A program made the translations under genes and the position numbers. From the NCBI RefSeq assembly GCF_018729455.1, contig NZ_JAHHZF010000007.1:186001-250000 (forward strand): 64,000 nucleotides of DNA. The letters run 5' to 3'. The notes under the pieces are model-generated. The model saw nothing but the letters and a program-made list of their open reading frames with translations, was not told the origin of the DNA and searched no databases. Each line of letters begins with the position of its first letter. The first letter of the stretch is position 1. This DNA is from Prosthecodimorpha staleyi (GTDB lineage Bacteria; Pseudomonadota; Alphaproteobacteria; Rhizobiales; Ancalomicrobiaceae). Positions 43,146 to 51,821 of this stretch are shown piece by piece.

Positions 43146-44549
43146 TCAATGTCCGGAATGTTTGGAACGACCCTTGCCGGGCTTGACCACGGTCACCTCC
43201 GCGCTCTTGCCCGGGATGACCTTGGCGGGCAGAGCTTCGGTCGCGGCCTTTTCTTCGCCCTTCCACTCATAGGCGACCGTGCCTGGCGGGTGGCGATACC
43301 AACCGGGGTCCTTGTAGTCGTCGCGGGCGAGGCCTTCGCGCACCTTCACGACCGAGAACATTCCGCCCATTTCGACGGGCCCGAACTGCGCGAAGCCGGT
43401 CATCATCGGCAACGTGTTGTCGGGCAGCGGCATTTCCATTTCGCCCATTTCCGCCATGCCGTTCGAGCCCATCGGCATATAGTCGGGCACGAGCTTGCGG
43501 ATCGTCTTGGCGACATCTTTCTTGTCGACGCCGATCCAGGTTTTCACATCGTGGCCCATGGCGTTCATCGTGTGATGCGACTTGTGGCAGTGGATTGCCC
43601 AATCGCCCGGTTCGTCCGCCACGAATTCGTAGGCCCGCATGGCGCCGACCGGGATGTCGATGGTGACTTCCGGCCAGCGCGCCTCGGGCCTGACCCACCC
43701 CCCATCCGTGCAGGTCACCTCGAAATGGTAGCCGTGCATGTGGATCGGATGGTTGGTCATGGTCAGGTTGCCGACGCGCACGCGCACCCGGTCACCCTTG
43801 GCGCAGACCAGATGGTCGATTCCAGGGAACGCGCGGCTGTTCCAAGTCCACAGATTGAAGTCGGTCATGGTGTTGACCTTGGGTACATAGCTTCCCGGCT
43901 CAATATCGTAGGCGTTGAGCAGGAAGACGAAGTCCCGGTCGACCGGCATGAAGGCCGGATTCTTGGGGTGGACCACGAAGAAGCCCATCATGCCCATCGC
44001 CATCTGCACCATTTCGTCGGCATGCGGGTGATACATGAAGGTGCCGGACTTCTTCAGCTGAAACTCGTAGACGAAGGTCTTCCCGGGCTTGATATGTGGC
44101 TGGGTCAACCCCCCGACACCATCCATGCCGCAAGGCAGCAACTGGCCGTGCCAGTGCACGGTCGTGTGCTCCGGCAGCTTGTTGGTCACGAAGATCCGCA
44201 CCTTGTCGCCCTCGACCGCCTCGATGGTCGGACCGGGGGACTGGCCGTTGTAGCCCCAGAGGTGGGCGACCATTCCGGGCGCGATCTCGCGTACGACCGG
44301 TTCGGCGACGAGATGGAATTCCTTCCAGTCGCCGTTCTGCCGCCACGGCAGGGTCCAGCCGTTCAAGGTCACGACCGGCTGGTAGTCGGGACCGCCGGCA
44401 GGCTTCAGTGGCGGCTGCATCGTCGGCTCGGTCATCACCGGAGCTTCCGGGATCGATGCGGCCTGGACGCGGCCGGAGACTGCGGAAGCTCCGATCAGCG
44501 CAGCGGCGGCGCCGCCGGCGCCGAGCAGGGAGCGACGGGAAACGGTCAT
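43146..44549 (-). CDS. Multicopper oxidase, Tat-exported (copper detoxification)
   Basis: Periplasmic oxidase likely to turn Cu(I) into less toxic Cu(II). The 467-residue precursor has a twin-arginine signal (SRRSLLGAGGAAAALIG, residues 4-20). Copper ligands are visible as HWHG, YHPHADEM, NHPIHMHG and HCHKSHHTMNAMG; the last supplies both trinuclear and type-1 ligands. A Met/Glu-rich stretch near the C-terminus (MPMGSNGMAEMGEMEMPL) may bind copper. AAGGAGA precedes ATG 44549. It sits between a TolC-family gene and the cupredoxin gene. Confidence 0.93.
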   Translation of the reverse strand: MTVSRRSLLGAGGAAAALIGASAVSGRVQAASIPEAPVMTEPTMQPPLKPAGGPDYQPVVTLNGWTLPWRQNGDWKEFHLVAEPVVREIAPGMVAHLWGYNGQSPGPTIEAVEGDKVRIFVTNKLPEHTTVHWHGQLLPCGMDGVGGLTQPHIKPGKTFVYEFQLKKSGTFMYHPHADEMVQMAMGMMGFFVVHPKNPAFMPVDRDFVFLLNAYDIEPGSYVPKVNTMTDFNLWTWNSRAFPGIDHLVCAKGDRVRVRVGNLTMTNHPIHMHGYHFEVTCTDGGWVRPEARWPEVTIDIPVGAMRAYEFVADEPGDWAIHCHKSHHTMNAMGHDVKTWIGVDKKDVAKTIRKLVPDYMPMGSNGMAEMGEMEMPLPDNTLPMMTGFAQFGPVEMGGMFSVVKVREGLARDDYKDPGWYRHPPGTVAYEWKGEEKAATEALPAKVIPGKSAEVTVVKPGKGRSKHSGH

Positions 44550-44562
44550 CGGCGGTCTCCTT

Positions 44563-45984
44563 TCAATGGCCTGCGCCGCCGGCCCCGGCCGGTGCGGCGG
44601 CAGCTGCGACCAAGGGGCCGGACCCGCTCCCGCCGCCGACCAGGGCGGTTTCGAAATCGACGGCAGCGAGCAGAAAATCGCGTCGCGCTTCGATTGCACC
44701 GACGTTCGAGGCCGCGCTTTCGCGGGCAGTGGTGAGAAGCGTGAACACGTCCTTGAGCATCCCGTTATATTCGAGGACTGCTTGCTCGCTGACGATCCGC
44801 CGCAACGGCAGGATGCGGTTCTGGAACTGGCGGGCGATATCGTAGGTCGCCCGATAGGCCACATAGCCGGTGCGGACCTCGGAGCGGATGGCGACCGCTT
44901 TCTCGATCAGGCGGTTGACTGCCTGCATGTAGGTCTCGCGCGCCTTGCGCACCCCCGTCTCGCCGAGGTCGAAAATCGGGACGCGGACTTCCAGTTCGAG
45001 GCCGCGCCTGCGGGTACGGCTCGTTTCCCGTCCGTCCTTCTCCCACTCGGTGCTGGAGATGCCGGCCAATTCGACCGCAGAGACGTACCGCGTCGCCTCG
45101 GTGAGGCCGAGCGAAGCGGCGAGAGCGTCAAGTTCGAGCCGGTCGGCAATCAAGTCGACCCGTCGCAGAATGGCCTGCGTCTCGAAATCACCTGCGCTGC
45201 GCACCGACTTCGGCAGCGACGGCAGGCGCGTCGGAATTCGATAGCCAAGATCGCCCCCCCACAGGCCGAGCTGACGCGTCAGCGCTTCCCGGTCGATCGT
45301 CGCCTTGAGGCGCGCCCGGGCGAGATCGTTCGAGACCTCGGCGTGGAAGGCCGCGGCGCGGGCCTGATCAAGCTTCGTCGCCGTGCCGGCCGCGCCGAGC
45401 TTGCGGGTCAGTTCCGCTGCCGCCTCGGCGGAGAGCCGGGCTTGCTCCAGAAAGCCGACGGTCTCGGCCGACGCCACTGCGCGGATCCAGGCGCGCCGTG
45501 TCTCGGCCGCGGTTCGGAACGTGGCCTGGATCGCACGGTAGCCCGCCGCTTCGAATCGATCCCGGCCGATTTCGCTCCGCTTCTGCAGCGTGGCCAGCGA
45601 GAGGAGATCGGCAACCAGCCGACGCTCGATCTCCAGGATGCCATCGCCGACGAGTCGCTCGATCGAGAGGGTCGGACTTTCGGGCAGCGTGGCGGCGACA
45701 TAGTCGGTCTCCGCAATGCCCAACGCGTTGTAGTCCGCCTGCAGGCCGCGATTGTTGAGGAGCGCGACCTGAACCGCATCGCCAAGTCCAATCGGCTTGG
45801 CCAGCTTGGCCCGGACCCGATCGCGCACCACGGCAGCGGTTTCCGACCCGTCGATCTTGACGACGTCCTGCTTCAGGTCGGCCGACGCGGCGGCGACGAC
45901 CGGGGTCATGCCGCCGTCCTCCGTGAAACTCGCGCAGCCGCCAAGGATCGCCGCTGCGAAGAGGAGGGAGAGCACCGTCTTCAT
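44563..45984 (-). CDS. TolC-family outer-membrane lipoprotein
   Basis: A 473-residue outer-membrane efflux-type protein. The N-terminus has a lipobox (LGGCAS), so it is anchored as a lipoprotein. The body repeats long amphipathic helices typical of TolC (AVQVALLNNRGLQADYNALGIAETDYV and RRVDLIADRLELDALAASLGL) and ends in a Gly/Ala-rich tail. It may export copper or a copper chaperone, but no inner-membrane pump gene is in the cluster. It overlaps the small lipoprotein gene by four bases. Confidence 0.9.
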   Translation of the reverse strand: MKTVLSLLFAAAILGGCASFTEDGGMTPVVAAASADLKQDVVKIDGSETAAVVRDRVRAKLAKPIGLGDAVQVALLNNRGLQADYNALGIAETDYVAATLPESPTLSIERLVGDGILEIERRLVADLLSLATLQKRSEIGRDRFEAAGYRAIQATFRTAAETRRAWIRAVASAETVGFLEQARLSAEAAAELTRKLGAAGTATKLDQARAAAFHAEVSNDLARARLKATIDREALTRQLGLWGGDLGYRIPTRLPSLPKSVRSAGDFETQAILRRVDLIADRLELDALAASLGLTEATRYVSAVELAGISSTEWEKDGRETSRTRRRGLELEVRVPIFDLGETGVRKARETYMQAVNRLIEKAVAIRSEVRTGYVAYRATYDIARQFQNRILPLRRIVSEQAVLEYNGMLKDVFTLLTTARESAASNVGAIEARRDFLLAAVDFETALVGGGSGSGPLVAAAAAPAGAGGAGH

Positions 45985-46202
45985 GGCACTTTGCCTCCCG
46001 GTCGGACGGCATCGTTGCTCGCCTTCCAAGGTTGCGGTTCGACCGGCTCGAAGACGGCCGTGCCGTCAAGGACGGGCCGGTAGGCGACGGGCCGGACTTT
46101 TGCGGCCGGGTCGGCAGGATCGGGCCCGGCTGTGACGACAGGCGCAGGGGATGCGCAGGCGGACAGCCAGAGGGCTGCGCCAAGCGCCAGACAGACTTTC
46201 AT
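45981..46202 (-). CDS. Small lipoprotein in the copper cluster
   Basis: A 73-residue precursor with a signal and lipobox LSACAS, followed by a short Pro-rich mature part (VRPVAYRPVLDGTAVFEPVEPQPWKASNDAVRPGGKVP). No domain is recognised. Its ATGA overlap with the TolC-family gene shows that the two are translated together, and it is the first gene of the tight block running to the CusF-like gene. Confidence 0.75.
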   Translation of the reverse strand: MKVCLALGAALWLSACASPAPVVTAGPDPADPAAKVRPVAYRPVLDGTAVFEPVEPQPWKASNDAVRPGGKVP

Positions 46203-50518: not shown

Positions 50519-50556
50519 GGAAAACGAAGCGGGCGCCCGGTTTCCCGGACACCCGC
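50519..50556 (-). terminator. Rho-independent terminator after the trypsin-like protease gene
   Basis: On the minus strand a 12-bp stem (GCGGGTGTCCGG with CCGGGCGCCCGC, two G-U pairs) around a GAAA tetraloop is followed by TTCGTTTTCC. It lies 27 bases past the protease stop. Confidence 0.88.
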
Positions 50557-50582: not shown

Positions 50583-51821
50583 TTACTTGTCGAGGGCTGC
50601 CGTCATGGCGCCCAGCGCCGAAACGCGTCGCTCGGTCTCCTCGACAATGCAGGCCTGGCGTCCGGCGCTGCCGCCGGTCTGTTCGGCGAAGCGGCACAGG
50701 CCGGTCAGCGAGGCGCTCCAGGCCGACTGGCTGACATCCACCGCCGCCTTGCCGGTGCCGGCCTTCGCGCGCAGCACCTTCAGGAAGCCGGCCATGCGGC
50801 CGTTGGCGCCGCGCAGGGCGTCGGCGAGGCAGGTCGCCTTGGACGAGGCGGATACGGTCCTGCACCTGGCGGCGTCGGTGGTGACGATTGCGTCGGCCGC
50901 CATCACGCCCTCGACCCAGGATTCCACGGTCGTGACCCGGGTATAGACGCCCGGATACTTCTTCTTGGCGCAGCCGTTGCCCCAGCTGACGATGCCGGCC
51001 TGATACCAAGTCTGGGTGTTGGAATCCTGGACCAGCAGCGGGCCGCCGGAATCGCCCTGGCAGGAGTCCTTGCCGCCCTTCTTCTCGCCGGCGCAGAGCA
51101 TGCGGTCGGTGATCGAATCCGAGCCGTAGGACTTCCGGCACTTCTTCTGCGACACGACCGGCACCGTGACCTGGTAGAGCTGGGTCGGGTAGCTGGTCGC
51201 GCTGCTGGCGTTGGTGTCGCCCCAGCCGATCACGGTGGCGTTGTCCCCGGAATCGGCGAGCGCGGATTGCGCGCTGGTCAGCATGGCCAAGGTCGACGGG
51301 CTCGGGATCGCCGAAGCGAGATGGATGACGGCCACGTCGTAGTCCTGGCTGTCCGGATCGTAGTTCGGGTGGATCGTGTAGGCGTCGACGGTGTAGCGGG
51401 TGCCGTTGCTGGTCGTGGTGGTCGAAAGGGTCTGGGTGCCGACCAGGACCTGCACGTCAGCCGCGCTGGTCAGATCGTAGACGCAGTGGGCCGCGGTCAG
51501 GATCCACTGCGAGGCGATGATGCTGGCGCCGCAGAACTGTCCGTTCCAATCGATCGGCTGGGAGGACTGCACCAGCGCCGCGATATACGGCCACTTGCCG
51601 GATTGCGCGACCGTGCCGCCGATGATCTTCGTCTCGACTTCCTTGGTCGCGGCCGGTCCGTCCGTGCGGCTGAGCACCGCCGCGTCGCGCTCGGAAATGG
51701 CGCGGCTGATCCAGTTGTCGCCTGCGGCAGCCGGAACCACGGTCGCGGCGCTGGCCGCGAGCCCGAACAGGAGCCCGGCCGCTCCGCGCCGGCGGGAACG
51801 AACGGATCGCAGGTTCGACAT
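50583..51821 (-). CDS. Secreted trypsin-like S1 serine protease with C-terminal LprI-like (DUF1311) domain
   Basis: A 412-residue precursor with a signal peptide (about 1-33). Residues 66-310 are a chymotrypsin-fold protease: the activation site TK/IIGG after K65, catalytic H112 (TAAHC), D162 (YDVAVIHL) and S258 (GDSGGP), and D252 in the position that gives trypsin its Lys/Arg specificity. Residues 312-408 resemble the lysozyme-inhibitor-like LprI/DUF1311 fold, with C320, C331, C376, C391 and the SQSAW motif. It is probably self-activating in the periplasm or outside the cell. GGAGGAATT precedes the ATG. S1 proteases are sparse in alphaproteobacteria. Confidence 0.9.
   Translation of the reverse strand: MSNLRSVRSRRRGAAGLLFGLAASAATVVPAAAGDNWISRAISERDAAVLSRTDGPAATKEVETKIIGGTVAQSGKWPYIAALVQSSQPIDWNGQFCGASIIASQWILTAAHCVYDLTSAADVQVLVGTQTLSTTTTSNGTRYTVDAYTIHPNYDPDSQDYDVAVIHLASAIPSPSTLAMLTSAQSALADSGDNATVIGWGDTNASSATSYPTQLYQVTVPVVSQKKCRKSYGSDSITDRMLCAGEKKGGKDSCQGDSGGPLLVQDSNTQTWYQAGIVSWGNGCAKKKYPGVYTRVTTVESWVEGVMAADAIVTTDAARCRTVSASSKATCLADALRGANGRMAGFLKVLRAKAGTGKAAVDVSQSAWSASLTGLCRFAEQTGGSAGRQACIVEETERRVSALGAMTAALDK

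Follow-up and report, generated by a model that had tools for sequence, protein, structure and literature searches.

A gene on the minus strand of the window (the whole 64,000-nucleotide stretch of Prosthecodimorpha staleyi DNA that was analysed) encodes a complete trypsin followed by a tail that, judged from its sequence, is a divergent LprI/DUF1311 domain. Two known families are newly paired in this trypsin-LprI fusion, which, in the genomes searched, was found in a single genus only, the Prosthecodimorpha/Prosthecomicrobium hirschii group. A literature search tying LprI/DUF1311 to trypsin returned nothing but two incidental co-mentions, and DUF1311 is unmentioned in a survey of prokaryotic serine proteases. 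The predicted open reading frame, 50583-51821, proved exact; its strand, which had been left unstated, is the minus one. The layout of the gene is as follows.

50583..51821, minus strand: trypsin-LprI fusion gene, 412 amino acids plus stop, with orthologues in two other genomes from the genus
51723..51821, minus strand: putative Sec-type signal peptide, residues 1-33 (sequence inspection)
51627..51722, minus strand: propeptide, residues 34-65, its last residue, Lys65, standing before IIGG (sequence)
50907..51626, minus strand: trypsin domain, residues 66-305 (PF00089, E 2.2e-62; alignment to 2f91)
50865..50906, minus strand: linker, residues 306-319 (identity to two orthologues)
50610..50864, minus strand: divergent LprI/DUF1311 domain, residues 320-404 (PF07007 at 21.1 bits with a cut-off of 22, reciprocal tail-profile matches, alignment, profile comparison, fold model)
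50529..50556, minus strand: probable intrinsic terminator, a 12-bp stem and T-rich tail directly after the stop codon

The assignment of the trypsin domain is straightforward. PF00089 covers residues 66-303 over its entire length (model positions 1-220 of 220) with 211 bits against a curated cut-off of 20.6, and the domain aligns to the crayfish-type trypsin 2f91 (E 3e-49), animal and other trypsins being its closest solved structures. The catalytic triad (H112, D162 and S258) and I66 are invariant in the three orthologues, the GDSGG motif and the IIGG N-terminus are present, and cysteines occupy the trypsin disulphide positions 97/113, 228/243 and 254/284. Also invariant is D252, six residues before S258, which corresponds to the Asp at position 189 in the base of the S1 pocket and from which trypsin-type Lys/Arg specificity is predicted. 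Triad, D252 and the activation site between K65 and I66IGG all align at the positions given in the original prediction, whose claim of an active enzyme stands in so far as the full domain and triad make an intact, very probably active protease.

Upstream of the catalytic domain, the putative signal peptide shows an RSRRR n-region, a hydrophobic core and, by eye, a cleavage site near the AAA/G34 junction; this AAAG end is also present in the 42%-identical orthologue when the three orthologues are aligned, and the residue before IIGG is K or R in 3/3 of them. Such a trypsinogen-like protease would be exported by Sec, form its three trypsin-type disulphides and be activated by a cut behind Lys65. 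The protease may plausibly make this cut itself, as the site fits its own specificity, and the activated enzyme would cleave after Lys or Arg.

The tail is a more difficult case. It spans about 85 amino acids and carries four cysteines (C320, C331, C376 and C391) and a QSAW motif (365-368), the cysteines and the SQSAW stretch lying where they had been reported. PF07007 (LprI) is its only convincing Pfam match: on the full protein, the match extends over residues 327-403 (model 10-106) with 18.0 bits, and on the tail alone it reaches 21.1 bits (E 4e-4), below the curated gathering cut-off of 22, which is why we call the tail LprI-like rather than a formal member of the family. The tails of the two orthologues, 93% (P. 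hirschii) and 29% (third genome) identical to that of the window protein, score 20.8 and 21.3 bits, also sub-threshold, with equal boundaries.

A single score of this kind would not settle the identity of the tail; the agreement of the orthologues, together with reciprocal retrieval and shared positions, does, in favour of a relation with LprI. A profile built from the three tails retrieves standalone secreted DUF1311 proteins in unrelated genomes (L034, L035, L049, L062 and L131) with E-values of 3e-6 to 4e-4 per genome. Aligned with ten LprI proteins, the tail keeps the shared pattern (C..C..QxxW..C..C..R..L), in which a pair of cysteines near the N-terminus is followed by QxxW, more cysteines and, at the end, R and L. 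The profile-profile score of the tail against 15 canonical LprI domains is 25.6, while the maximum in 100 column shuffles is 20.8. The HHalign probability is 36% with these 15 domains and 7% with a smaller reference set. AlphaFold2, given the three orthologues, models the tail as all-helical (pLDDT 82.6). The best TM-score that Foldseek gives this model among solved structures is 0.65, with 6ar7, at a non-significant E of 6; the 6ar7 protein is itself matched by an LprI profile, and the DUF1311 structure 3gi7 is absent from the listing. Searches of the tail against the PDB with phmmer or a profile returned chance-level matches only. That the tail is an unrelated helical four-cysteine domain resembling LprI by chance is very improbable: each comparison is sub-threshold or weak when taken singly (Pfam, HHalign and Foldseek alike), but three orthologues agree, one of them divergent, DUF1311 proteins are retrieved reciprocally, every shuffle scores lower and the invariant positions are shared. 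The predicted match to LprI/DUF1311 thus holds, as a divergent, sub-threshold, member-like domain.

The search for the same fusion, proposed at the outset, turned it up in the window's genome, in P. hirschii and in one more genome of the genus. Its downstream neighbour is the same gene in all three, which we read as an NDUFA9-like reductase, and in the other 12 genomes of the family this gene is present with no trypsin within about 1.5 kb. A fusion-profile search of about 400 genomes from the order and another 400 from the phylum, generally confined to scoring the top four candidate places in each genome, brought up numerous trypsins but no other fusion, and a scan of the genome collection with the tail alignment returned P. 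hirschii only. Additionally, two profiles detected no LprI domain on the other long-tailed trypsins among the loci compared, long LprI reading frames across the class held no GDSGG motif, and a plasmid search matched trypsins that all fell short of 80% query coverage. Among 63 trypsin domains in a maximum-likelihood tree, the three fusions group (100/96) with trypsins that lack a tail and come from other families in the order. As the fusions are nested among tail-less proteins, the tail was most simply added in the Prosthecodimorpha/P. hirschii lineage.

Purifying selection maintains both parts, as indicated by a dN/dS, window against P. hirschii, of 0.15 for the trypsin and 0.14 for the tail. 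A frameshift or read-through artefact is ruled out, as the same fusion occurs at the same locus in three genomes with low dN/dS. The linker is the least conserved part: it is 71% and 29% identical in the two orthologues, where the trypsin reaches 93% and 48%. No sigma-70 consensus promoter was found upstream of the gene; a stem-loop comparable to its terminator lies 3′ of the P. hirschii fusion gene, and the gene probably forms a transcription unit by itself. Its conservation argues that it is used.

Elsewhere in the window, at 43146-46029, two minus-strand genes look by eye like a multicopper oxidase carrying a Tat-type signal and an outer-membrane efflux protein of the TolC type. A dip in G+C to 0.60 at 42-44 kb adjoins this pair, which is perhaps an acquired metal-resistance island.

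The LprI domain also occurs on other proteins. Standalone LprI proteins are common (open frames of 120-190 amino acids), and the domain is C-terminal on caspase (PF00656) proteins (L140:1407-2978, minus strand; L203:2002-3708, minus strand) and N-terminal on bacterial alpha-2-macroglobulins of 1800 and 1697 amino acids from two alphaproteobacteria (L195:949-6348, minus strand; L196:2109-7199, plus strand). Three genomes of the order (L132, L067 and L054) encode LprI together with a bacterial SH3 domain (PF08239, over the cut-off in L067 only), and it also accompanies DUF3298/PdaC-like domains. This occurrence on several unrelated envelope-type proteins suggests that LprI is a mobile envelope module. 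A further alpha-2-macroglobulin (L200:1134-6251, minus strand) has a weaker LprI match and perhaps the same pairing, and five or more tandem LprI-like repeats make up two secreted-looking proteins (L135:1397-3400, plus strand; L136:523-2040, plus strand).

Trypsins, in turn, carry diverse tails. Other trypsins of the family, including two in the window genome that sit elsewhere in the tree, have DUF4384-like or caspase plus DUF4384-like tails (the label "DUF4384-like" is our reading of the sequences and not a Pfam result), and in some proteobacterial trypsins (L117 and L124-L127) the C-terminus is a short, glycine-rich, sorting-like tail. We also observed single chains of about 820-950 amino acids with a trypsin, a caspase and a DUF4384-like end (L010:1-2544, minus strand; similar in L008, L011, L012, L014, L083, L086 and L089), which join two proteases of different class and form their own clade in the trypsin tree.

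The mobile-module pattern of LprI, the varied tails of trypsins and the properties of the Salmonella LprI protein ScwA described below lead us to favour a localising or docking role. We give roughly even odds to the proposal that the fusion is an exported, self-activating trypsin whose LprI-like tail localises the enzyme or docks substrates in the cell envelope; the acquired helical domain would hold the protease in the envelope or dock it on envelope- or peptidoglycan-associated proteins. The targeting tail of the original prediction fits with this, given that tails differ among the secreted trypsins of related bacteria and that LprI is attached to unrelated envelope-type proteins. Against the proposal, the tail scores under the Pfam cut-off and is missing the R and RD found in the canonical QRxWxxxRDxxC motif, so that its surface may be an altered one, and the type II-like secretins of the genome mean that the protein could leave the cell. 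A further-reaching idea, speculative and rather unlikely, is that LprI/DUF1311 does not inhibit lysozyme but serves for docking in a network of envelope proteolysis in alphaproteobacteria, having been joined in parallel to trypsins, caspases and protease-trapping alpha-2-macroglobulins; the fusion would then be one member, directed at peptidoglycan-associated substrates.

Next to the localising role, a less probable reading, to which we nevertheless give some weight, is that the tail regulates its own protease in cis, as a folding aid, a zymogen stabiliser or a partial inhibitor that keeps activity low until export. LprI does recur on protease-related proteins (trypsin, caspases and protease-trapping alpha-2-macroglobulins), and between near relatives tail and catalytic domain are equally conserved. 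However, LprI also stands alone or with SH3 or DUF3298 domains, close trypsins of the same clade manage without a tail, the linker is short and variable, and the full-length AlphaFold2 model from three input sequences (pLDDT 34.5) gives no confident packing of the domains.

Somewhat less likely still is a tail that guides export or final placement, in the manner of the C-terminal sorting tails on other secreted bacterial trypsins, and does nothing more after the enzyme has arrived. The sorting-like tails of other trypsins speak for such a function, as do two type II-like secretins above the cut-off in the window genome; yet a domain that is often a whole small protein is unlike a sorting signal.

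The original prediction had also proposed a role against host or competitor enzymes, for which we found no support. The LprI family is named after a lipoprotein of M. tuberculosis that, according to PMC7933661, also carries an MliC lysozyme-inhibitor domain. ScwA has LprI without MliC and leaves lysozyme sensitivity unaltered; it resides in the periplasm, relies on its cysteines for stability and changes the levels of peptidoglycan enzymes, and its authors credit lysozyme inhibition to the MliC domain (PMC7933661). In the fusion tail, a Pfam search found no match to MliC at E up to 10. In view of ScwA, reading the tail as a lysozyme inhibitor is weakly based. A bifunctional defence protein, its tail inhibiting host or competitor lysozymes and its trypsin degrading them or other attacking proteins, is thus improbable: the family name and the M. 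tuberculosis report, as cited in PMC7933661, speak for it, but ScwA confers no lysozyme resistance, MliC is missing and the tail is divergent. The free-living habit of the Prosthecodimorpha/P. hirschii organisms also counts against it.

The fusion adds a new domain pairing for bacterial trypsins. Together with the caspase and alpha-2-macroglobulin pairings, it argues that calling the family "lysozyme inhibitor LprI" may be misleading in a large part of its members. The interest lies in how LprI behaves as a module more widely, not in an anti-lysozyme weapon. The compact fusion could serve to show directly what an LprI domain does.

Compared with known systems, the protein resembles the trypsin/chymotrypsin family S1 (PF00089) in its whole domain, triad, S1 Asp, activation site and three disulphide positions, and differs in its C-terminal LprI-like domain, which its nearest tail-less relatives do not have. 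With LprI/DUF1311 proteins (PF07007; solved example 3gi7), it shares length, the four cysteines, QxxW, a terminal RxxxL and an all-helical model, but its tail falls under the Pfam cut-off, reads QSAWSASLTGLC where canonical members have QRxWxxxRDxxC, is joined to a protease and has no MliC domain. The caspase-LprI proteins (PF00656 plus PF07007; L140 and L203) likewise combine a protease with a C-terminal LprI domain, although their protease fold is unrelated and LprI was presumably attached independently. Trypsins of the same order with DUF4384-like or caspase plus DUF4384-like tails (L002 and L010) also place an accessory C-terminal domain after a secreted trypsin, but with another tail and on another branch of the trypsin tree. 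Finally, Salmonella ScwA, like the fusion as we predict it, is exported and carries LprI at its C-terminus, with four conserved cysteines, whereas it has no protease domain and modulates the levels of peptidoglycan enzymes (PMC7933661).
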